Position numbers and translations under genes: made by a program | The notes under the pieces: model-generated | What the model was told of the DNA's origin: nothing | The model's input: the letters and a program-made list of their open reading frames with translations, nothing else | Database searches by the model: none | Shown: positions 3,421 to 19,979 of the stretch, one piece after another | Layout: each line of letters begins with the position of its first letter | Position numbering within the stretch: the stretch's first letter is position 1 | Source: a virus | Strand: one strand, 5' to 3' | DNA length: 21,130 bases | Virus record (IMG/VR): IMGVR_UViG_3300037843_000081 | Span: 1 to 21,130 of that record

Positions 3421-5691
3421 ATGGCCGACTCCCGTTGGCACCAAGATCTTGAGGTTGCTCAGCTTATCGAGCACCTGAATCAAGACGGCAAATTCAATCA
3501 ATCCGACAACCTCACCCCTTCGGAGGTCAGGGTCATCCTCCGCGAACTCGAACACTGCCGGAACGACTTCGTGTATGCGGCCAGAAACTACTTCTGGATC
3601 ACTACCAAAAAGCTAAGAAATCAATTACTTACGCTGTTACCGGCCCAGGAACTTATATTGGAAAAAGTTCTTGAAATGAAGGCTAAGAAACAGCCACAAA
3701 AGATTATAATCATCAAAGCGAGACAATTGGGATGTTCGACTTTAATTGAAGCGTTGATAGCTTGGCGTACTATGTTCTTTTCAAACATCAATGCCCTCGT
3801 AGTCTCTTACGACAAGGCCCATACTTCGGATGTTTTGTTCCCTATAATGTGCTTCATTTACGATAATATGCCCTGGTGGATGAAGCCGATGTGCGCCCAG
3901 AGGAAGGCTGACGAGCTTCTATACTTCGACAATCCCAAGCCAGACTTAAGGAGCATAGACCCAGGATTAAACAGCAAGGTGTTCGTTAGGGGAGCGAATT
4001 CTTCTGGCGTCGGGCAGGGAATAAGGTTAAGCGCCGTACACGTTTCTGAGTTCACGGAATATACGGAGGACGTAGCTCGCGGGATTATTGATGAAGACAT
4101 GGTGAATGCTCTTGTGGAAGATGAGAACACCTTTGCTATTTTGGAATCAACGGCTAAGGGGGCCAACCGTTACGGGCATAAACTCTGGAAGCGCTGTATG
4201 GAATTGCTGGGGAGCGATGAGGCTGAGTGGTATCCACTATTCCTTCCGTTCTTTTTTGAGGCAACTAGAGTCCGCCCGGTGCCTGTCAACTGGAGGGTTG
4301 AGACGCCGGAGTTTAGAATGAGGGAGAAAGTAGAGTCGGAGTGGCTTCGCTGCCAGCGAAGTGAATGTTTACAGTATCACTACCGCTACGTTCAAAAGGT
4401 AGACAGATCTGGTTTAATTTGCCCAACCTGCGAGATTGGGATACTTAACCCATACGTGTTGGCCGACGAGCAACTGGCATGGTATGAGCATCGTAGAAAG
4501 AATTCGGACAGAGACGAAGAGAGTTCTAAGTTACTGAAACAGGAAATGGCCAGCACAGGCGAAGAGGCATTCCAGTTGCAGGGTTATCAGATATTCGGGC
4601 AGAAGGCGCAGGACTTCGCCAATATAAACGTGCGGAACCCGATAGCAGAGGGAGACTTTGATCTGGCTGGAAGATTCCACGGATGTAATACTACCAATCC
4701 AAAGAACGAAGCTGGGTTTTATTCCTGCTACCAGGAGGATTGCAACCTCGATCACACTTACGACGATGCTCCGCTGAAGATCTGGGAGTGGCCCATGCCG
4801 GAGGCTGAATACTGCATAGGCGCTGATCTCTCGGAGGGGTTGGGCGGCAAGTCGGCCTACAGCGTAGGGGTCGCTATCCGGTTTAGCACGACAGGCGGCG
4901 GAGATTATCAGGTAGCAACGTGGAGGGCAAACACGATTGATCCTATTGGGTTTGCCTACAAACTGAACCATCTTGGTTTGCTTTACAACAGCGGACTGAT
5001 GTCTGTCGAATGCAACCGATATGACATTTGCTTAGGCACGCTGCGCTACCAGTTGGGGTATCCCAATCTATACCGCTGGAAGCACTTAGATTCCCTGAAC
5101 ATCATGTCAAACAAGTTGGGATGGTGGACAAATATGTCTTCCCGTCCCCGGCTCTGGCAGACGTTTAAGCGATGGCTCCAGCAGGAATTGTTCTTTGTCC
5201 GATCCCGCAATCTCGCAGAGGAGATGAAGAATTTTGTTAAGGACGAGGAAGACTCCTACAGTGCTGGAGGCGACCAGGACGAGTGGGACGATGAGCTTTT
5301 AGCGTGTATGATTTCCCTTTATACGGCCCACGAGGGAGACTGGAACGACGCTTTAGGTATGATCGCGCCGAAGGCGAAGTTAGCAAAAGAAGATGCCGTC
5401 TATGTGATAAAGTGCCAGAACTGCCCGAACGAATGGTGGGCCAACACAGTCGAGGATAAGAACATAGACCCGACAGAGTTTCAGCCGCAGATGGACCCCA
5501 ATCACAAAGTAGTCCAGTCTGGAGGGATGCGGTGTGCGGTATGTGGGAGCCGTAGGCTTGAGATTACGCGGAACAATAATGGTGGTGCTCCAGTGTCGCA
5601 ACAAGGGGAAGATGATCTTATCAATGAAGCGAACCAGTATTGGGACCCATCGCAGGAGTGGAATAATCCGAACGACATGGAAGTTTTCTAG
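3421..5691 (+). CDS. terL: terminase large subunit (packaging ATPase/nuclease)
   Basis: A 756-residue protein. The ATG at 3421 is preferred over a GTG at 3415 because AAGGG lies seven bases before it. The ATPase half shows a Walker A-like loop KARQLGCST (residues 99-107), an acidic Walker B-like segment AVHVSEF (205-211), and the coupling motif ESTAKG (242-247). The nuclease half is RuvC/RNase H-like: IGADLSEG with Asp469, VECN with Glu530, and WDDELLACM with Asp623/624. These power DNA translocation into the head and cut concatemers. Unusually, there are two Cys clusters: C311/C316 with C334/C337 between the domains, and C665/C668 with C705/C708 at the C-terminus, both zinc-ribbon-like. The length exceeds a typical TerL (~450-600) partly because of these. 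The gene is noticeably AT-rich in places (20 G/C in bases 3661-3720). Confidence 0.92.
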   Translation: MADSRWHQDLEVAQLIEHLNQDGKFNQSDNLTPSEVRVILRELEHCRNDFVYAARNYFWITTKKLRNQLLTLLPAQELILEKVLEMKAKKQPQKIIIIKARQLGCSTLIEALIAWRTMFFSNINALVVSYDKAHTSDVLFPIMCFIYDNMPWWMKPMCAQRKADELLYFDNPKPDLRSIDPGLNSKVFVRGANSSGVGQGIRLSAVHVSEFTEYTEDVARGIIDEDMVNALVEDENTFAILESTAKGANRYGHKLWKRCMELLGSDEAEWYPLFLPFFFEATRVRPVPVNWRVETPEFRMREKVESEWLRCQRSECLQYHYRYVQKVDRSGLICPTCEIGILNPYVLADEQLAWYEHRRKNSDRDEESSKLLKQEMASTGEEAFQLQGYQIFGQKAQDFANINVRNPIAEGDFDLAGRFHGCNTTNPKNEAGFYSCYQEDCNLDHTYDDAPLKIWEWPMPEAEYCIGADLSEGLGGKSAYSVGVAIRFSTTGGGDYQVATWRANTIDPIGFAYKLNHLGLLYNSGLMSVECNRYDICLGTLRYQLGYPNLYRWKHLDSLNIMSNKLGWWTNMSSRPRLWQTFKRWLQQELFFVRSRNLAEEMKNFVKDEEDSYSAGGDQDEWDDELLACMISLYTAHEGDWNDALGMIAPKAKLAKEDAVYVIKCQNCPNEWWANTVEDKNIDPTEFQPQMDPNHKVVQSGGMRCAVCGSRRLEITRNNNGGAPVSQQGEDDLINEANQYWDPSQEWNNPNDMEVF

Positions 5692-5702
5692 GTGGACGAA
5701 AA

Positions 5703-5759
5703 TACGATTTCATAGTATCGTAGGGGCGTAAGACGGCGCTGGCATAGCCCGACCCCCTA
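5703..5759 (+). promoter_or_regulatory. possible structured leader between terL and the next gene
   Basis: The 95-base gap after terL can form two stem-loops: TACGAT (5703-5708) with ATCGTA (5717-5722), and TAGGGG (5721-5726) with CCCCTA (5754-5759). The second encloses a small inner hairpin (38-40 with 46-48 of the line). The two outer stems share bases 5721-5722, so they would compete slightly. No T-run follows, so it is not an ordinary terminator. It may be an mRNA processing or translation-control element for the GTG-started gene downstream. Chance folding cannot be excluded. Confidence 0.25.
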
Positions 5760-5786
5760 AAAGGAATAGGGAAGGAGAAAAATCCC

Positions 5787-6326
5787 GTGTCCTCCTGCAA
5801 TACAGCGACGACATACACTTCGACTTTGAATTACCGCCAGGACACTGGTGGGACGGACATCGTATATCAAGGCAAGGGGATCTGTGCGATTCACAGCCAG
5901 ATGCCAAGCCAGATGACGTTGACTACCAATGCGGGTAGCGCTGCCGGTACCTATGTCCTGTATTTTCCTTCAACCGCTGGGCTTTATACTGGCGTTTGGG
6001 CCAATGCTGCTGGTATCCCAGCCAACACGCATGTCCACACAATCCAATCAACCTTTGTCCAGCTTGACACAACGCTAGCCACGACCATCACGACTGGCAC
6101 GCCGATCATATTTACCCCCGGCCCTATTGGTGTTCCAACGATCTGGGGGTCAACCCCCGCCAACACCTATGCCATACCAGCCCCAAACAGCGACGGGACT
6201 TACGGTCCGCAACACGCTACCGATCCCTTTACCTATACTGTGCAGATGGCCGCTGCTGATTTGGGGTTCGGACAAAGTTTTAAGTTTGCTTACAATGGGC
6301 AGATTATCTACGGCGAGGTAGTGTAG
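5787..6326 (+). CDS. hypothetical beta-rich protein, possibly structural
   Basis: A 179-residue protein starting at GTG with a strong AGGAG at 5773-5777. It is rich in Thr, Ser, Gly, Pro and aromatic residues, with alternating beta-prone stretches (MTLTTNAGSAAGTYVLYFPS, STFVQLDTTLATTITTGTPI, FKFAYNGQIIYGEVV) and no helices of note. There is no signal peptide. Composition resembles phage virion accessory or surface proteins, but no family is recognised. It opens the block between terminase and portal, and a potentially structured leader precedes it. Confidence 0.6.
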   Translation: MSSCNTATTYTSTLNYRQDTGGTDIVYQGKGICAIHSQMPSQMTLTTNAGSAAGTYVLYFPSTAGLYTGVWANAAGIPANTHVHTIQSTFVQLDTTLATTITTGTPIIFTPGPIGVPTIWGSTPANTYAIPAPNSDGTYGPQHATDPFTYTVQMAAADLGFGQSFKFAYNGQIIYGEVV

Positions 6327-6614: not shown

Positions 6615-6635
6615 GAAAGTTAAAGGAGATTCCCG

Positions 6636-7175
6636 ATGAAATTCAAACCATTCCTGGCCGTGTTTGCCGCGGCCGCCATGCTCACCCAGACCGGCTGTAC
6701 CGGTTCCGACATTCTGCTCACCTTGGAAGCGAGCGTGGCGGCGTCCGAGATCCTTGTCGCCAGCCTCGCCACGGCGGGCAAGATCCCAGCCGCTGACGCT
6801 ACGCCCATCGAGGCGGCGATTGCCGATGTCCCGGCTGCTTACACCCAGACGAGTACGGAACTCGCCTCTTCGGATGCGCCCGCAGTCAAGACGCTGAAGA
6901 TCACCGCCTACTTCGCCAACGCGCTCCAGAAGTTGAATGCGCTCCCTCCGGAGGCGCAGGTGTACGCTATCCCCGTGACACAAGCCATCAACGCCTTCCT
7001 GAACGCCATCAACCCGCCGCCAGCGGCTACGGGTGCGTTTAAGGCGAATGTGCGTACTACGGCGACGGCGTTCCCAGCCACCGGCTGGGCTCACCAGATA
7101 GCGCGTCATCACCTCAGCGACGTCAAGACCAGGGCGCTGAATCTTCAAATCGCCATCGACAACCTCAAGAAGTAG
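6636..7175 (+). CDS. possible phage-encoded lipoprotein
   Basis: A 179-residue protein with an excellent ribosome binding site (AAAGGAGA before the ATG). Its N-terminus has basic residues (MKFKPF), a hydrophobic core (LAVFAAAAML) and then TQTGC with Cys21, a near-lipobox (the -3 residue is Gln, so not canonical). If processed, Cys21 would be lipidated and the rest displayed in the periplasm. The mature part is Ala-rich and helical, with no membrane segment and no enzyme motif. Phage lipoproteins commonly act in lysis (outer-membrane spanins) or superinfection exclusion; neither can be assigned. The gene is GC-rich (38 G/C in bases 6661-6720), unlike terL. Four bases separate it from the next gene. 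Confidence 0.6.
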   Translation: MKFKPFLAVFAAAAMLTQTGCTGSDILLTLEASVAASEILVASLATAGKIPAADATPIEAAIADVPAAYTQTSTELASSDAPAVKTLKITAYFANALQKLNALPPEAQVYAIPVTQAINAFLNAINPPPAATGAFKANVRTTATAFPATGWAHQIARHHLSDVKTRALNLQIAIDNLKK

Positions 7176-7178
7176 CCC

Positions 7179-7634
7179 ATGCGCGCGCTGCTCCTGCTGA
7201 TGATCGTATCGGGATCGGCCCTCGCTCAAGATAACTTTGCGGCGGCTGGAGTGAGCTACAACCATACCAGCGCCGCTTCATTGGCTGGTACAGCGGTTTA
7301 CGCGCACGCTATTGCCGGAAGTTCCTGGTTCTTTTCCAGCCTGGACGTGCTGTCCGACTCCACTAAGCCGGGAAATGTGTCCACGAACTTCGCCCCTGGC
7401 GTGGCGCAGAAGCTATTCACGGTTCACTGGCTGGGCCTCTATACGGTCACTGGGGCCGGGGTGAGTTGGGCCGGGTCGAACACCGGCTGGACCTGGAGCG
7501 GCGGCGAGATGCCCATCATCCATTTGCCGCGCGGGTTTGTTATCGCACTTCCGGTGCGGTTCGTCAAAAGCAGCGTGAACAACAACTCCAACTATCAAGT
7601 GATCGCCACATTCCTGATTGGCAAAGGATGGTAA
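7179..7634 (+). CDS. exported beta-rich protein, possible outer-membrane barrel
   Basis: A 151-residue protein with a clear signal peptide: MRALLLLMIVSGSALA, likely cleaved before Gln17. The mature part (~135 residues) is rich in Ser, Gly, aromatic and alternating hydrophobic residues (SSWFFSSLDVL, LYTVTGAGVSWAG, FVIALPVRFVKSSV) and ends on a strand, NYQVIATFLIGKGW, with a terminal aromatic. That is the usual mark recognised by the Gram-negative barrel-insertion machinery. A small outer-membrane barrel, comparable in concept to phage-encoded Lom of lambda, is therefore plausible, but at this size a secreted beta-protein is also possible. The gene follows the possible lipoprotein by three bases, so they are probably co-translated. 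Confidence 0.55.
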   Translation: MRALLLLMIVSGSALAQDNFAAAGVSYNHTSAASLAGTAVYAHAIAGSSWFFSSLDVLSDSTKPGNVSTNFAPGVAQKLFTVHWLGLYTVTGAGVSWAGSNTGWTWSGGEMPIIHLPRGFVIALPVRFVKSSVNNNSNYQVIATFLIGKGW

Positions 7635-7641
7635 GTGGGCT

Positions 7642-7797
7642 ATGCTGATTCTAATCATCATTCTGATTCTGCTGTTCGGCTCGGGCGGAGGTTGGTACGG
7701 CTATAACCGCTTCGGCGCAGGGGGCGGGTTCGGTATCAGTCTCGGTACCATTCTGCTAATCCTGCTCATAGCCTACCTGTTGGGCGGATTCCGCTAA
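7642..7797 (+). CDS. DUF3309-like small membrane protein
   Basis: A 51-residue peptide that begins MLILIIILILLFGSG and ends GTILLILLIAYLLGGFR. Two hydrophobic segments (about residues 2-12 and 33-48) flank a Gly/aromatic loop (GGGWYGYNRFGAGGGFG). This hydrophobic, Gly-Trp-Tyr loop, hydrophobic pattern is that of the DUF3309 family of tiny membrane proteins, common in proteobacteria and acidobacteria and of unknown function. A phage copy is unusual. Downstream by ten bases is the peptidase gene. It could act as a small lysis or membrane-targeting peptide, but that is a guess. Confidence 0.65.
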   Translation: MLILIIILILLFGSGGGWYGYNRFGAGGGFGISLGTILLILLIAYLLGGFR

Positions 7798-7807
7798 GGG
7801 GCCTACC

Positions 7808-9658
7808 ATGCCAGAATTTACATGGAAGCTCGGTCGGAACCCGAGTCCGCCCGATGATCGCAATCTGAAGCTCACCAAATACCTAACCATAGGGAAACTG
7901 CCGCCCACGCCGCAGAGCGTCCAGTACAGCCCCGCCGTGATGAAGCAGGGCGGCTACCGGATGCTGCTGAACGACCGATATGGTTGCCACGATGCCACAA
8001 CTGAGGTGCTGACAGAGAAAGGCTGGCAGCCCTGGCCGGAATATGACGGCTCCCCGTTGGGGACGATGAACCAAACTACAGGCCTCCTAGAGTTCCAGCA
8101 GCCGTCTGCTCTTCAGCGGTGGGACTACGACGGCCCAATGTACTTTGCCGACCATAGGAGTCTGGACTTTGGCCTAACACCCAATCACCGCATGTTTCAC
8201 CGGCCCTATGTAATCCCGTACCAAGACGGGCAGTACGTTCCTGGGACTTCCGGTTACGGCCACTATCAGTTCTCCCCGATCTCGGAGTTGGGCACGCGGG
8301 TTGCTTTACCAGCATCGACTACCGGATTCCTGGGGGCGGAGTTGCGATCCCTGCGGATTGGAGGCAGGGACTGGGATGGTGACGATTTTCTGGCCATCCT
8401 GGCACTGGTCCTTTCCGATGGATACGTCAGTAACGCCGAGCACCACCGAGATACGATAAGTTTCTGTTGCTTTCGGGAAGATCGGCGCGAGATGGTGGCG
8501 GCGCTTGCATGTCGGCTTGGCATCAGCGAGTTCCCCAAGCGCAGGGGCGTATGGCAGTTCACGGATGGCGCTCTCGCAGAGTGGATGAAGGTGAACTGCT
8601 ACACGAACCCGACCCTGAAGAGTCCATTCAAGCGGGTTCCCGACATTGTCAAGGTGGCGTCCGTTTCGCAAGTACAAGGCTTCTTGAAGTTCTACGGAGA
8701 TCAGCACGTTTCAGGGGAGGGCTCCCGGAGCTTCAGTTCCACCAGTAGGCGCATGATTGATGACCTACAAGAACTTCTTCTGCGAATTGGCAAACGCGGG
8801 GGCATCTATTCTCGCCCAATGCGCGACGGGATAATCAAAGGCAAGATAGTCACCGGGGCAACGGACCACGACGATCACACATTGACGGAATGGAGAATGC
8901 AGGGCCTAGTTACCCTTCAAAGGCTATCAAGCAAGCCAACCGTTCAGATTGACCACTATCGCGGGGAGGTGTTCTGCGCCACGGTCCCTAACTCAACCCT
9001 GGTGACGCGGCGCAATGGACAGGTTCTTATCTCAGGAAACTGCTGTGTACCCGCGCAGATGTGCCACACTGTTATGCAGCACGCCGCCAATGCGGGACAT
9101 CCTATGCCGGTGCCGAGCGATGCCGAAGTGATTTCGCTGTACTCGGCCATCGGCGGCTATGTTCCCGGCGATCCATCAACCGACAACGGATGCGATATGT
9201 TGACCGCGTTGAACTACTGGCGCAACACGGGCATCACCATCGGCGGCGTTGTGCATAAGATTGGTGCATTCGCGCAGATCAACTTAGCCGATCCCGACGA
9301 AATCAACGCGGCCCTTTGGATCTTCGGTTCGACCTTCGATGGCGTAAACCTTCCTGCCGCCATGCAGAATTCTAACTTCTGGGGTAATATCCCATCCGAC
9401 CTGAGCGGGGATTGGGAACCCGGTAGTTGGGGCGGGCACTGCGTCGGTCAGGCAGACGCCACACTGGACCCAAACCTAGACCTCTACCAGACAGTTACGT
9501 GGGGCGGATTGATGGCAACCGACGCCACATTCATGAAGGCCTATTGCGACGAGGCTTATGTGGTCATCTCGCAAGACTGGCTCGCCGACAACGGGCAATG
9601 CCCGGCTGGGTTCGACATCGCCGCATTGACGGACGATCTGGCTGCGGTGTCCGCATAA
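7808..9658 (+). CDS. papain-like cysteine peptidase interrupted by an intein
   Basis: A 616-residue precursor, AAGGGG before the ATG. Residues 1-59 and 412-616 are the host protein (264 residues after splicing). It resembles a papain-fold peptidase family seen in bacteria and phages, whose members run 'NDRYGDCvxAgxxH'. Here the joined sequence reads NDRYG then CCVPAQMCH, placing the predicted nucleophile at Cys413. A second active-site signature is GGHCVG with His544, followed by TWGG (564-567), and the tail CDEAYVVISQDWL is typical of the family. No signal peptide is seen. The substrate is unknown; the location beside a holin-like gene permits a lysis role. Residues 60-411 are the intein, listed separately. 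Confidence 0.8.
   Translation: MPEFTWKLGRNPSPPDDRNLKLTKYLTIGKLPPTPQSVQYSPAVMKQGGYRMLLNDRYGCHDATTEVLTEKGWQPWPEYDGSPLGTMNQTTGLLEFQQPSALQRWDYDGPMYFADHRSLDFGLTPNHRMFHRPYVIPYQDGQYVPGTSGYGHYQFSPISELGTRVALPASTTGFLGAELRSLRIGGRDWDGDDFLAILALVLSDGYVSNAEHHRDTISFCCFREDRREMVAALACRLGISEFPKRRGVWQFTDGALAEWMKVNCYTNPTLKSPFKRVPDIVKVASVSQVQGFLKFYGDQHVSGEGSRSFSSTSRRMIDDLQELLLRIGKRGGIYSRPMRDGIIKGKIVTGATDHDDHTLTEWRMQGLVTLQRLSSKPTVQIDHYRGEVFCATVPNSTLVTRRNGQVLISGNCCVPAQMCHTVMQHAANAGHPMPVPSDAEVISLYSAIGGYVPGDPSTDNGCDMLTALNYWRNTGITIGGVVHKIGAFAQINLADPDEINAALWIFGSTFDGVNLPAAMQNSNFWGNIPSDLSGDWEPGSWGGHCVGQADATLDPNLDLYQTVTWGGLMATDATFMKAYCDEAYVVISQDWLADNGQCPAGFDIAALTDDLAAVSA
7985..9040 (+). mobile_element. intein with LAGLIDADG homing endonuclease domain
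   Basis: A 352-residue in-frame insert (precursor residues 60-411) with the diagnostic blocks of inteins. Block A begins at Cys60 (CHDATTEVLTEKGW). Block B contains TPNH (124-127), with the usual Thr and His. A first LAGLIDADG-like helix is FLAILALVLSDGY (Asp204) and a degenerate second is FLKFYGDQHVS (Asp298). Block F is EVFCATVPNSTLVT (387-400). Block G is VLISGN with Asn411 followed by Cys412 as the +1 nucleophile. So it should self-splice by the Cys/Cys route. The penultimate residue is Gly instead of the common His, which can slow Asn cyclisation. The insertion lies one residue before the predicted catalytic Cys413, a conserved site as inteins prefer. Confidence 0.85.
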
Positions 9659-9667
9659 AGGAAAGTC

Positions 9668-10036
9668 ATGCTCTCAACCGAACTTGGAAGTCAGGCGGGC
9701 GTCAGCGTCATCCTGGTCTACCTGCTCCAATGGCTCAAAGGCTCACCGTGGTTTCCCTGGCTCTCAGCGAGAACGGACACCATTAACCGGGTGCTGGCGA
9801 TTGCCGTTGCCTTCTTCACCTCGGTTGGCTTTCAGGTCTCAATGACCGGTACCTGGACATCGGGTGGCACGCTGGTCATCCAGATCCCGGCCGCCACCGC
9901 CGTCCTCTCCGTAATCCTGCACACCGCCTCACAGAGCGGGTTCCAGGAACTCTTCTACAAACTGGCGGTCAAGCCGCCACGCGAGCCCCTGCTCAAACTC
10001 AGCAAAGACGATTCAGTCTGCGTAACGAAAGGGTGA
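9668..10036 (+). CDS. holin-like small membrane protein
   Basis: A 122-residue protein with AAGGAAAG before the ATG. Three hydrophobic segments are visible, around residues 9-23 (QAGVSVILVYLLQWL), 41-57 (RVLAIAVAFFTSVGFQV) and a weaker one at 68-85 (TLVIQIPAATAVLSVIL). The tail is charged (KPPREPLLKLSKDD), as in many holins. Holins open the inner membrane at lysis. The placement right after the peptidase and right before another two-helix membrane protein supports a lysis cassette. The weak third segment, and the lack of a recognisable family, leave the function uncertain. Confidence 0.5.
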   Translation: MLSTELGSQAGVSVILVYLLQWLKGSPWFPWLSARTDTINRVLAIAVAFFTSVGFQVSMTGTWTSGGTLVIQIPAATAVLSVILHTASQSGFQELFYKLAVKPPREPLLKLSKDDSVCVTKG

Positions 10037-10041
10037 GTTCA

Positions 10042-10203
10042 ATGACCGTTTCAATTCTCTTCCTGGTGATCGCCGTGGTACTGTTCGGTATCGGCGCATG
10101 GTCGCGCTGGTGGAACAGCCCACAGCCGTACTATCCGTCATTCGTCTGCGGCGGCTTGTTCTTCTGGGCACTATCCCAATTGTGGCCCATGATCTCCAAG
10201 TAG
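10042..10203 (+). CDS. small two-helix membrane protein
   Basis: A 53-residue peptide, five bases after the holin-like gene, with AAAGGGTGAG before the ATG. Two membrane segments are clear: residues 3-19 (VSILFLVIAVVLFGIGA) and about 33-49 (SFVCGGLFFWALSQLWP). They are separated by an aromatic, Pro-rich loop (RWWNSPQPYYP). No family is recognised. Its size and location suggest a second holin or antiholin, by inference only. Confidence 0.55.
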   Translation: MTVSILFLVIAVVLFGIGAWSRWWNSPQPYYPSFVCGGLFFWALSQLWPMISK

Positions 10204-10227
10204 CGGCAGGCCCATAAATTAAGCGCA

Positions 10228-10257
10228 GGGGACCGTCGCCTAAGGGCGACGGTCTCC
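10228..10257 (+). terminator. strong hairpin, possible terminator or mRNA processing site
   Basis: Two 13-base arms (10228-10240 and 10245-10257) pair perfectly apart from one G-T wobble, around a TAAG loop. The 3' flank is TTGAGAAAA, not a T-run, so it is a poor intrinsic terminator on the + strand. It may stall or protect transcripts, or separate the envelope genes from what follows. Confidence 0.45.
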
Positions 10258-17075: not shown

Positions 17076-17726
17076 ATGTATAACCCCGTTTCTTACGGTG
17101 TGGACTCGCTGACGTTGGCTAGTGGTGTGACTTTGGGTTTCGGCCCCGGTCAAACCGCCCCGCCTCGTCTGCTTGTCATCGTCCCCACGGCGGCAACAGG
17201 AATCGTCCTGCCCGCCATCGCTTCTACTCCCCCGACCCCTCCCGGCACGCCGGGAACAACTCCAGGCGTGGGTGATGGCTTCTGCATCACCGTCCGCAAC
17301 GGCGCGGCCTATGCGGTCACGCTGGCAGCGGCAACTGGCAATACGCTGGCGGATTCGCTCATCCTGAACTATACGGGCGCTATGGAGACCCTTCAGGCGT
17401 GTGCGAAAGATACCAAGTGGTATCGCATCGTGAATCCGCTCGGTGCGGTTGGTTATCGAACCGTTGGCGGGACCGTCACGGTCGCCACTACGGATCGGTA
17501 TATCAACGTCGCCACGGCCACTACTACGGTCGTTCTGCAAGCTGCATCGGTCTACCCCGCTGGGGTCGAATTCGTGAGCATCATGAACTACTCTGGCAGC
17601 AGCATCAGCATTGCCGCTTCGGGGAACACCATCAACACTACGGCGTCCCCATACATCGTCAGCACGAAGGTAAGCACCGGAATTTGCACGGATGGGGTCG
17701 CCTTCTACCTCACGCATACAGCGTAA
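17076..17726 (+). CDS. modular beta-rich virion surface protein, paralogue 1
   Basis: A 216-residue protein with AAGGAG nine bases before the ATG. Two beta-rich modules are visible: residues ~30-115 (containing LLVIVPTAATGIVLPAI, then FCITVRNGAAYAVTLAAATG and KWYRIV) and ~125-216 (TVTVATTDRYINVATA, then VEFVSIMNYSGSSISIAASG and VAFYLTHTA). Each ends in a 'dg..wy' strand. A Pro/Gly-rich loop (TPPTPPGTPGTTPG) interrupts the first. The next gene is a close paralogue. Repeated small beta modules like this are common in phage capsid-decoration and tail proteins. No signal peptide is present. Confidence 0.65.
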   Translation: MYNPVSYGVDSLTLASGVTLGFGPGQTAPPRLLVIVPTAATGIVLPAIASTPPTPPGTPGTTPGVGDGFCITVRNGAAYAVTLAAATGNTLADSLILNYTGAMETLQACAKDTKWYRIVNPLGAVGYRTVGGTVTVATTDRYINVATATTTVVLQAASVYPAGVEFVSIMNYSGSSISIAASGNTINTTASPYIVSTKVSTGICTDGVAFYLTHTA

Positions 17727-17741
17727 ACAGGAGAAGCAACT

Positions 17742-18386
17742 ATGATTAACCCTGTCTCTTACGGCGTGGATTCCTTAACGCTCGTGAGTGGCGTGACGCT
17801 GGGCTTTGGGCCTGGGATGACGGCTCCACCCCGTCTACTGGTCATTGTGCCTACGGCGGCTACCGCCATCACTCTGCCTACTATCGGTCCTACTCCCCCG
17901 ACCCCTCCCGGTACGCCGGGAACGTCGCCGGGAGTTGGCGACGGGTATCAAATCACCATTCGCAACGGAGCTGCTTACGCAGTTACCGTGTCAGCGGCCA
18001 GCGGCAACACCTTAGCCGACTCGCTTGTCATGAACTACACGGGTTGCCAGGAAACCCTCCAAGCCTGCGAGGCTAACAGCAAGTGGTATAGGATTGTTCC
18101 GGTCCTTGGCGCTGCTATGTACCGCAAGGCTGGCGCTCCGCTGACCATCGCCACCTCAGATCGGTATGTCAACATCGCCACAGCGGGCACCATCACGCTG
18201 CTTGCTCCATCGTCCTATCCGCCTGGGGTTGAGTTCGTCACGTTGCTGGACGGTGCAGGCGTCACCTACACCGTTGCTCCAACTTCCGGCAACATCAACG
18301 GAACCGCTGCGCTTACGGTAGCGTCTGCAATTGCGGTCGGGGTTTTAACTGACGGCTCAAACTTCTTTTTAACGCACAGTGCGTAG
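17742..18386 (+). CDS. modular beta-rich virion surface protein, paralogue 2
   Basis: A 214-residue protein with AGGAG before the ATG. It is a close tandem paralogue of its upstream neighbour: both open with NPVSYGVDSLTL, share VSGVTLGFGPG/ASGVTLGFGPG and APPRLLVIVPTAAT, and carry the same Pro-rich loop, whereas the second module has diverged more. The function should match the first. Since the two copies retain the N-terminal half better than the C-terminal half, the N-terminal part may bind the capsid and the C-terminal part may face outwards. This is inference. Confidence 0.65.
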   Translation: MINPVSYGVDSLTLVSGVTLGFGPGMTAPPRLLVIVPTAATAITLPTIGPTPPTPPGTPGTSPGVGDGYQITIRNGAAYAVTVSAASGNTLADSLVMNYTGCQETLQACEANSKWYRIVPVLGAAMYRKAGAPLTIATSDRYVNIATAGTITLLAPSSYPPGVEFVTLLDGAGVTYTVAPTSGNINGTAALTVASAIAVGVLTDGSNFFLTHSA

Positions 18387-18401: not shown

Positions 18402-18881
18402 ATGGCACTACAGCAAGCAAAAGTTTGGAACATCAACCAACAGGCGATCTATTTTGCCACGGCGGGGGTAGCGGACCTCCCTACCACCGCCGACTTCTTT
18501 AATGTCGGGGACTGGGTGATTAACATCAACCCAACGATGGCGACGGGAGAACCCGCAGCCTGGGTTGTCACTACGGTTGCTAGTGGGACGACTCCCTCAT
18601 TTAGTCCCTTCTCTCGCTCGTTGCAAGCGAAAACGGCGGGATCGGCCTATACGGTAAGCACCAATACCGACAGGGTTGTTTTAGCTGGGGCTGTCCCGAT
18701 TACCCTTCCGGCTGCGACTGCTTGGCCCAAAGGGCAGGAGATTGCTTTCAGTTGTCTCACGTCTTCGACTACCATTACTCCAGCTTCAGGGAACATCGGA
18801 GGGAATGCCTCCGTGACTTTGACAACCGGGCAATACGGACGATGGGTTGGAGACGGAACAAATTACTGGCAGATTGGGTAA
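18402..18881 (+). CDS. modular virion surface protein, short form
   Basis: A 159-residue protein. An N-terminal domain (residues ~1-62, KVWNINQQAIYFATAGVADL, NVGDWVININPTMATGEPAA) is also found in the next protein. One beta module follows (AYTVSTNTDRVVLAGAVPIT, PAATAWPKGQEIAFSCL, TTITPASGNIGGNASVTL) and ends NYWQIG. A similar module closes the two upstream proteins. There is no signal peptide and no enzyme motif. Start-to-neighbour spacing is 15 and 9 bases, so the genes form one operon. Confidence 0.6.
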   Translation: MALQQAKVWNINQQAIYFATAGVADLPTTADFFNVGDWVININPTMATGEPAAWVVTTVASGTTPSFSPFSRSLQAKTAGSAYTVSTNTDRVVLAGAVPITLPAATAWPKGQEIAFSCLTSSTTITPASGNIGGNASVTLTTGQYGRWVGDGTNYWQIG

Positions 18882-18890
18882 GGGGGATCT

Positions 18891-19979
18891 ATGGCGTGGC
18901 TTGAATCAAAAGCATGGGACGTAAACCAGCACGCAGTTTACTTTGTGACCGCTGGATCGACGGACCTTCCAACTACCTGCGATTTCCTCAACGTCGGAGA
19001 TTGGGTTGTCAACGTCAACCCCAGCATGGCGGTCGGCGATCCGGCTGTTTGGGTTGTGACTTCAATATCAGGCGTCACGCCGACGTTTACAGCCTTTGCT
19101 AATGTTGGCTCAAACCCAGTCTCGACGGTTACGGCGAACACCACCGTTGCCACCTCAGCTAAGACGCTTTTAGCAAATGCTGTGTCGGCTGGGTTTAAGA
19201 TCACCCTTCCGGCTATTGCTACCGCGAACAAAGGGTTCGCTCCCAGAATAATCAAGAGTGATACCTCCACAAACCCTGTCACCGTGACTCCTTCTGGAGC
19301 GAACACCATCAACGGGCAGACGGGCGACTACGTGATGAATACGCCTTATCAAGCCATGGAGATTGCTAGCGATGGGTCTTCCAACTGGGATAGGGTATTA
19401 GGATCTGTCCCAAGCAACCAGCGATCTGCTGGATCGGCTACGACAGTGACGCCAGCAGACAGCTACATATTAGTTAGCGCTGGTGCGACAGTCACGTTTC
19501 AGGCCGCAACGGCGTACCCAGTGGGCCAAGAAGTCACGATACGAAACATCAGCACCGCGAATGTCACCGTCACTCCAGCGCAGGGGAACATTGACGGATA
19601 CGCGAGCCTCACGCTTAACCCATATGCTTCTGTGGGCGTGGTCACGGATGCTTCTAATTGGTGGACCGTCACCCAGTTCGTCAACCACGGGATACGGTTG
19701 GCGACTCTCACCACCACGATGTCACCCAGTTCAACAATCACCACAGCAGACCAGATTGTGATTTTCACCAGCGCCGGTATGGCTAATATCCCCAGTGCTT
19801 CTACGTGGCCTTCTGGATACGTCCTGACCCTCAAGGCCGTGGGAGCGGCTACGGTCAGCACTCCTGGAGGCAACATCTATACCGCCGCCGCGCAAACCAC
19901 CGTTACTACCTTGGCTGCGTATGCGGCTCTTCAACTTACGGTCGATCCGGCCCAGACCAACTGGTATTCGGTCGGCTAA
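18891..19979 (+). CDS. modular virion surface protein, long form with three modules
   Basis: A 362-residue protein with AAGGGGGA before the ATG. Its first ~65 residues are related to the N-terminal domain of the preceding protein (KAWDVNQHAVYFVTAGSTDL, FLNVGDWVVNVNPSM). Three beta modules follow, at about residues 76-165, 175-265 and 268-362, each with a 'tv..a..dG' or 'ITP..GNIDG' turn and ending in a Trp-containing strand (NWDRVLG, NWWTVTQ, NWYSVG). The protein therefore looks like the short neighbour with two extra modules, a sign of module duplication. Likely a decoration or fibre component; assignment to capsid or tail is not possible from sequence alone. Confidence 0.65.
   Translation: MAWLESKAWDVNQHAVYFVTAGSTDLPTTCDFLNVGDWVVNVNPSMAVGDPAVWVVTSISGVTPTFTAFANVGSNPVSTVTANTTVATSAKTLLANAVSAGFKITLPAIATANKGFAPRIIKSDTSTNPVTVTPSGANTINGQTGDYVMNTPYQAMEIASDGSSNWDRVLGSVPSNQRSAGSATTVTPADSYILVSAGATVTFQAATAYPVGQEVTIRNISTANVTVTPAQGNIDGYASLTLNPYASVGVVTDASNWWTVTQFVNHGIRLATLTTTMSPSSTITTADQIVIFTSAGMANIPSASTWPSGYVLTLKAVGAATVSTPGGNIYTAAAQTTVTTLAAYAALQLTVDPAQTNWYSVG

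Follow-up and report, generated by a model that had tools for sequence, protein, structure and literature searches.

Probable recent homing of an intein to the active site of a papain-like phage peptidase

Does an intein that splits a phage peptidase beside its predicted catalytic cysteine act as a timer of that enzyme, or has a selfish element homed to a conserved codon? The question is raised by a viral record from IMG/VR (IMGVR_UViG_3300037843_000081) in which terminase, portal, and major head proteins are encoded. The whole stretch of 21,130 nucleotides analyzed here, positions 1 to 21,130 of the record, is referred to as the window. A first-pass annotation had described the insertion and proposed that self-splicing could delay the action of the peptidase until late infection.

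The split gene and its intein-free alleles

The gene and its parts are arranged as follows.

7808..9658, + strand: precursor open reading frame, a papain-like peptidase split by an intein (616 aa, stop within the coordinates; match to phrog_19005, E value of 3e-26)
7808..7984, + strand: N-extein, 59 aa, with the C-terminal end ...NDRYG; its junction with the C-extein is as in the intein-free contigs L002 to L006
7985..9040, + strand: class 1 intein, 352 aa (C60-N411), with a Hint splicing domain and a LAGLIDADG endonuclease, from Pfam, alignments, and a fold model
9041..9658, + strand: C-extein, 205 aa plus stop, from the translated open reading frame
9041..9043, + strand: Cys412, the +1 splicing nucleophile, from the homologue alignment and the intein-free allele

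The calculated masses are 67.9 kDa for the precursor, 39.6 kDa for the intein, and 28.3 kDa for the ligated extein, whose calculated length is 264 aa. When viral contigs were scanned with the joined extein as query, five of them (L002 to L006) proved to carry a 95% identical intein-free allele, all the contigs compared here being public metagenomic ones. This allele reads NDTLG-CCVPAEMFH, compared with NDRYG/intein/CCVPAQMCH in the window, and its two halves join precisely at the splice points predicted by the first-pass annotation. The comparison with homologues thus confirmed both these points and the joined reading NDRYG-CCVPAQMCH. The extent of the insert had been given correctly as residues 60 to 411; however, its nucleotide end had been placed at 9046 instead of 9040, which is wrong because the codons of C412 and C413 belong to the C-extein.

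The same intein occurs in two further contigs, L007 and L008, and is therefore no assembly artefact; none of the three intein-bearing contigs contains a stop or frameshift. Sister phages, which share 91 to 98% identity across long stretches, have this peptidase gene in the corresponding place without the intein, and of approximately 90 homologues, the window allele alone is interrupted by an intein at the catalytic-Cys site. Of 62 homologues, 55 have Asp immediately before the catalytic Cys and six, including the intein-free allele, have Cys. Since the intein-free allele already has the Cys-Cys pair, the +1 nucleophile need not have come with the intein. Judging from these sequences, only homologues with Cys at that position could be hosts for a class 1 intein at the Cys412 codon.

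Intein anatomy and the fold of the host protein

The first-pass annotation had listed blocks A, B, F, and G as well as LAGLIDADG-like helices, all of which are present and could be aligned among relatives.

7985..8023, + strand: block A, CHDATTEVLTEKG, with the nucleophile Cys1 (intein alignments)
8177..8200, + strand: block B, TPNHRMFH (intein alignments)
8396..8428, + strand: LAGLIDADG motif 1, ILALVLSDGYV, with Asp145 of the intein (clade alignment)
8681..8710, + strand: LAGLIDADG motif 2, FLKFYGDQHV, with Asp239 of the intein (intein alignments)
8957..9004, + strand: block F, YRGEVFCATVPNSTLV (intein alignments)
9017..9040, + strand: block G, GQVLISGN, with a penultimate Gly and the terminal Asn (alignments; precedent in PMC5050341)

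C60, the block B His, and the terminal Asn are invariant in a 47-row intein alignment. Block B contains the TxxH of class 1 inteins, and the terminal Asn is followed by Cys (LISGN/C), as in this class, in which the penultimate residue is commonly but not obligatorily His; the window intein has Gly at that position. Within a clade of eight, D145 and D239 of the intein are invariant, and Asp239 is kept in at least 90% of 47 relatives. Motif 2 reads GDQH versus DGDG (GDGS in other inteins). We considered that this motif might be degenerate or decayed and rejected the idea, as its Asp is kept throughout the clade. The six-intein alignment (A3) was too diverged for a pattern scan.

A Pfam search of the precursor returned LAGLIDADG_3 (E value of 5e-7), and hundreds of phage relatives of the intein were found. 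A sequence search of solved structures with the window intein gave no match. Such searches were uninformative for the intein and the extein alike, and fold comparison was therefore needed. The intein model, built from 47 related inteins, reached a pLDDT of 92.6; its best match in the PDB was the TliVMA intein (7qsu; Z of 25.4 over 309 residues), in agreement with a Hint fold carrying an embedded LAGLIDADG domain. By its motifs, the insert is a class 1 homing intein with predicted self-splicing and a presumably active endonuclease.

The host protein belongs to phrog_19005, a family of unknown function, with C-extein residues 413 to 614 aligning to profile positions 53 to 255 (E value of 3e-26). 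A model of the natural intein-free protein, made from an alignment with 61 relatives, had a pLDDT of 91 and a pTM of 0.90. Its top PDB matches were papain-type enzymes or their precursors, led by xylellain (3ois; Z of 21.6, 210 residues, rmsd of 2.5) and including pro-papain (3tnx; Z of 16.8). The sole match of the extein profile to sequences of solved structures, Muskelin, was probably spurious. The residues relevant to the active site are the following.

7970..7972, + strand: Asn55 at Cys-6, where papain has the oxyanion-hole residue Gln19 (invariant, 62/62)
9044..9046, + strand: Cys413, predicted catalytic nucleophile (invariant, 62/62)
9437..9439, + strand: His544, predicted catalytic His in GGH (invariant, 62/62)
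9497..9505, + strand: TWG, counterpart of papain SWG (homologue alignment)

Cys413 and His544 of the precursor correspond to Cys61 and His192 of the intein-free protein. Together with the xylellain fold match, the invariant Cys and His support the papain-like nature of the extein put forward by the first-pass annotation, and its placement of the insertion beside the predicted catalytic Cys holds as well, the intein ending one residue before Cys413. The Gln expected at Cys-6 in family C1 is Asn in all 62 homologues, and the catalytic Asn before SWG is lacking in the window family: the position of papain Asn175 is not conserved, being Val in the window and Val, Asp, Ile, or other residues across homologues. 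Neither PF00112 nor any other Pfam peptidase model matched the window precursor. Because of the Asn at Cys-6 and the non-Asn residue before (S/T)WG, the modeled extein is best described as a predicted peptidase family of the papain fold (clan CA-like) that is not a member of family C1.

The expected course of splicing begins with an N-S acyl shift at Cys60, after which Cys412 would receive the N-extein by transesterification. Cyclization of Asn411 would then release the intein, and ligation of the exteins would yield the 264-residue peptidase with Cys413 and His544. Before splicing, 352 residues would lie between Asn55, on the side of the oxyanion hole, and the helix bearing the catalytic Cys, which would leave the precursor inactive. 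As the intein parts Asn55 and the whole N-terminal part from Cys413, the activity of the peptidase likely depends on splicing.

Divergence at the insertion site and relatives of the intein

The window gene and the intein-free allele differ at 39 of 795 nt. Of these differences, 29 lie between -60 and +30 nt of the insertion (hypergeometric P of ~1e-21), while random placement gave at most 17 differences per 90-nt window in 20,000 placements. The affected segments flank the intein on both sides.

7922..7984, + strand: left part of a likely co-conversion tract, with dense differences from the intein-free allele
9041..9064, + strand: right part of the likely co-conversion tract

Such clustering is as expected from recent homing with co-conversion, in which the homing endonuclease would cut the empty allele and repair would copy the intein together with a little flanking donor DNA. 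Clustered divergence could alternatively stem from selection acting on the target sequence or from general recombination. The flanks at 6624-7807 and 9658-10038 are less similar to the sister phages (~75% upstream) than are the exteins away from the insertion (~98%), and because the genes on both sides also diverge, general recombination may have contributed at the insertion. Around the peptidase gene, the comparison with sister phages displays a mosaic boundary pattern. In the endonuclease region of a close pair of related inteins (L125 and L126), dN was 0.037 and dS 0.70, giving a dN/dS of ~0.05.

The nearest inteins, most of which are 41 to 53% identical to that of the window, sit in other papain-like peptidases and always at the catalytic Cys (LG/SCTGHA, LG/SCTANG, EGS/CVANAT, LGY/CWTWSG, HGY/CWAYST, TPQ/CWANGP, QCGS/CWDFSG, and others). 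In a tree of 49 inteins, 16 distinct papain-Cys inteins formed one clade (98/98; all 200 bootstrap trees), and the remaining relatives in the sample, whose hosts are mostly unrelated phage proteins, fell outside it. Of note, the intein trees are built on short, diverged proteins, and the placement of one member, L131, is unsure: in an earlier 67-row tree it lay outside the peptidase clade, whose other eight rows held together at 100/99, whereas it lay inside in the 49-intein tree with its wider sampling of the clade. In 13 of the 16 the intein directly precedes the catalytic Cys, which is thus the +1 nucleophile for splicing; in the other three (the window, L122, and L123) the intein is inserted one codon farther upstream.

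Every host in the clade except the window has Gln at Cys-6, and most hosts have recognizable His and NSW motifs downstream. The spliced exteins of L122, L123, and L131, and likewise those of L137 and L159 (see below), pass Pfam PF00112 (Peptidase_C1). In pairwise comparison, the exteins of the clade hosts gave only short or chance-level alignments with the window extein, that is, similarity at chance level. These dissimilar sequences therefore suggest that the intein probably moved between distant peptidases.

Further inteins occupy other catalytic motifs. An HNH-type intein interrupts members of the peptidase family to which the window extein belongs (L087, positions 3971-5851; also L088, L115, and L116), and in L087 and L088 it sits directly after the catalytic His motif (DENNGH/CFTSDT...FVHN/CFVGLG); the L087 intein matches the Pfam models Intein_splicing (E value of 4e-19) and HNH_3 (E value of 3e-7). 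In L137 (2501-3481) and L159 (2501-3637), inteins of the window's wider family interrupt the catalytic Asn motif (NSWG/SDWG) in phage peptidases that match PF00112. Inteins are thus found at all three catalytic motifs, Cys, His, and Asn, of papain-like phage peptidases. A related intein was also observed in L016 (5001 onward), right after the GNHD motif of a probable metallophosphoesterase, with similar sites in L182 and L196 (SNHD and GNHE).

The gene adjoining the peptidase gene encodes a small membrane protein.

9668..10036, + strand: small membrane protein, 122 aa, two predicted transmembrane segments, holin-like judged solely from position and hydropathy

Searches against PHROG and Pfam gave no match for this protein. 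The neighbors of peptidase relatives include endolysins, SLT and LysM proteins, and r1t-type holins. From these raw neighborhood observations, a role of the peptidase near lysis is plausible. Elsewhere, positions 10039-10232 (from the holin-like gene to 10233) differ between L008 and the window, which are otherwise ~99.9% identical. A protein with sigma-70 region 4 (Pfam E value of 3e-7), possibly a phage-encoded sigma-like factor, is encoded at the contig start (338-1147). Two tandem pairs of paralogous genes lie at 17076-18386, where MxNPVSYGVDSLTL... appears twice, and at 18402-19979, with a common W-xNQxAxYF...VGDWV start; they possibly encode virion decoration or fibre proteins.

Alternative readings and known systems

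We consider it probable that a homing intein recently entered this gene for a papain-like phage peptidase, at a point one codon upstream of the catalytic Cys, and that no timing role is needed to account for it. Selfish homing toward conserved active-site codons accounts for where the intein sits, for its presence or absence in sister phages, and for the clustered divergence. The intein would be maintained by its LAGLIDADG endonuclease, which would copy it into intein-free alleles, and by the cost of imprecise loss at the insertion site, which would destroy the peptidase. Several features sit less comfortably with this reading, namely, the Gly in block G, the GDQH of motif 2, and an extein without equivalents of Gln19 and Asn175 and without a Pfam peptidase match. 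The last of these bear on whether the extein is a protease at all. Its Asn in place of papain Gln19, the unconserved Asn175 position, the missing Pfam match, and the cell-wall hydrolases encoded nearby in relatives would all suit another papain-fold enzyme, such as a peptidoglycan amide hydrolase or transferase, or a pseudoenzyme. With the Cys and His unchanged in all 62 homologues and a cysteine protease, xylellain, as the closest solved fold (Z of 21.6), we regard this as a serious but minority view, which would alter the substrate and not the account of the intein. Decay of the element, with splicing lost and the intein-bearing phages devoid of a functional peptidase, might be read into the penultimate Gly and the unusual second LAGLIDADG motif. 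It is highly improbable, given that all splicing residues are kept across the clade, that three contigs lack stops and frameshifts, that the extein away from the insertion is nearly identical to the intein-free allele, that the L125/L126 pair is under purifying selection, and that a penultimate Gly is compatible with efficient splicing (PMC5050341).

The late-infection switch suggested by the first-pass annotation fared less well than its description of the insertion. In a fuller version of that scenario, slow or conditional splicing would hold the peptidase inactive until late infection or a signal, protecting the host cell or timing lysis. The insertion does part active-site residues, members of the family often lie near endolysin, transglycosylase, and holin genes, the whole intein clade keeps to the catalytic-Cys position in many peptidases, and regulatory roles have been proposed for active-site phage inteins (PMC5050341). 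Nevertheless, the sister phages have the peptidase gene in the same place without the intein and the delay is therefore dispensable, the window allele stands alone with an intein at this site among approximately 90 homologues, and the insertion bears a homing-like signature. The conserved endonuclease motifs and a lineage of inteins that tracks the active-site codon also speak against a switch. Moreover, the Bethlehem RDF intein, which has a penultimate Gly, was completely spliced by time zero, and changing this Gly to His slowed splicing (PMC5050341); the penultimate Gly is hence no argument for slow splicing and counts against a slow timer. We consider such a switch very unlikely. Only a little less doubtful is a broader proposal in which the lineage has specialized on the catalytic Cys of papain-fold phage peptidases and moves among distant members of the fold. 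One thiol would then serve as the +1 splicing nucleophile and afterwards as the peptidase nucleophile in most hosts, making the intein a mobile propeptide that removes itself; losing or mutating it would entail losing the enzyme, and phages may have taken it up for zymogen control. Collectively, the element looks less like a built-in timer than like a selfish homer to the active sites of proteases.

Active-site inteins are already known. Here, a single lineage can be traced through numerous divergent peptidases that share one fold, its insertion point staying at the catalytic Cys throughout; a recent arrival is marked by natural alleles without the intein and by a likely co-conversion tract. 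The locus thereby offers a clean system in which to ask whether an intein persists by homing alone or whether the host enzyme gains from delayed activation. It also points to naturally occurring cysteine peptidases that would activate themselves and in which a single thiol may take part in both reactions.

Inteins favor conserved host sites (PMC5784728; PMC2814812), phage inteins sit in active centers, and a penultimate Gly is known in splicing-competent phage class 1 inteins (both PMC5050341). The class 1 inteins of mycobacteriophages (Bethlehem RDF, ShiLan DNA methylase, and BeanWater nucleotidyltransferase; PMC5050341) share with the window intein the Hint plus LAGLIDADG layout, the motifs CxxxTEVLT, TPNHR, and RRNGxVxxxGN, insertion in an active center, and Gly before the terminal Asn, with 26 to 27% identity over the full length. 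In contrast to them, the window intein resides in a papain-like peptidase and has GDQ, not GDG, in motif 2. The inteins of chloroplast ClpP and of Lon (PMC5784728) also lie inside proteases; these, however, are serine proteases of an unrelated fold, and the likeness to the window lineage is one of host type. Xylellain (3OIS), a papain-type cysteine protease of Xylella fastidiosa, shares the papain fold with the phage family at 14% identity, but it has no intein, and the phage family differs by its Asn at Cys-6 and by lacking a conserved catalytic Asn. Within phrog_19005, the extein's own family, the relatives compared here lack an intein at the Cys, near-copies of the window excepted. In the open-licence literature, we found no reports of inteins in papain, peptidase C1, or phage cysteine proteases, and the lineage that follows the catalytic Cys was likewise absent from the literature searched. 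Papain-fold peptidases are apparently a new class of intein hosts, while the intein itself is of an already known sort, an active-site phage intein.
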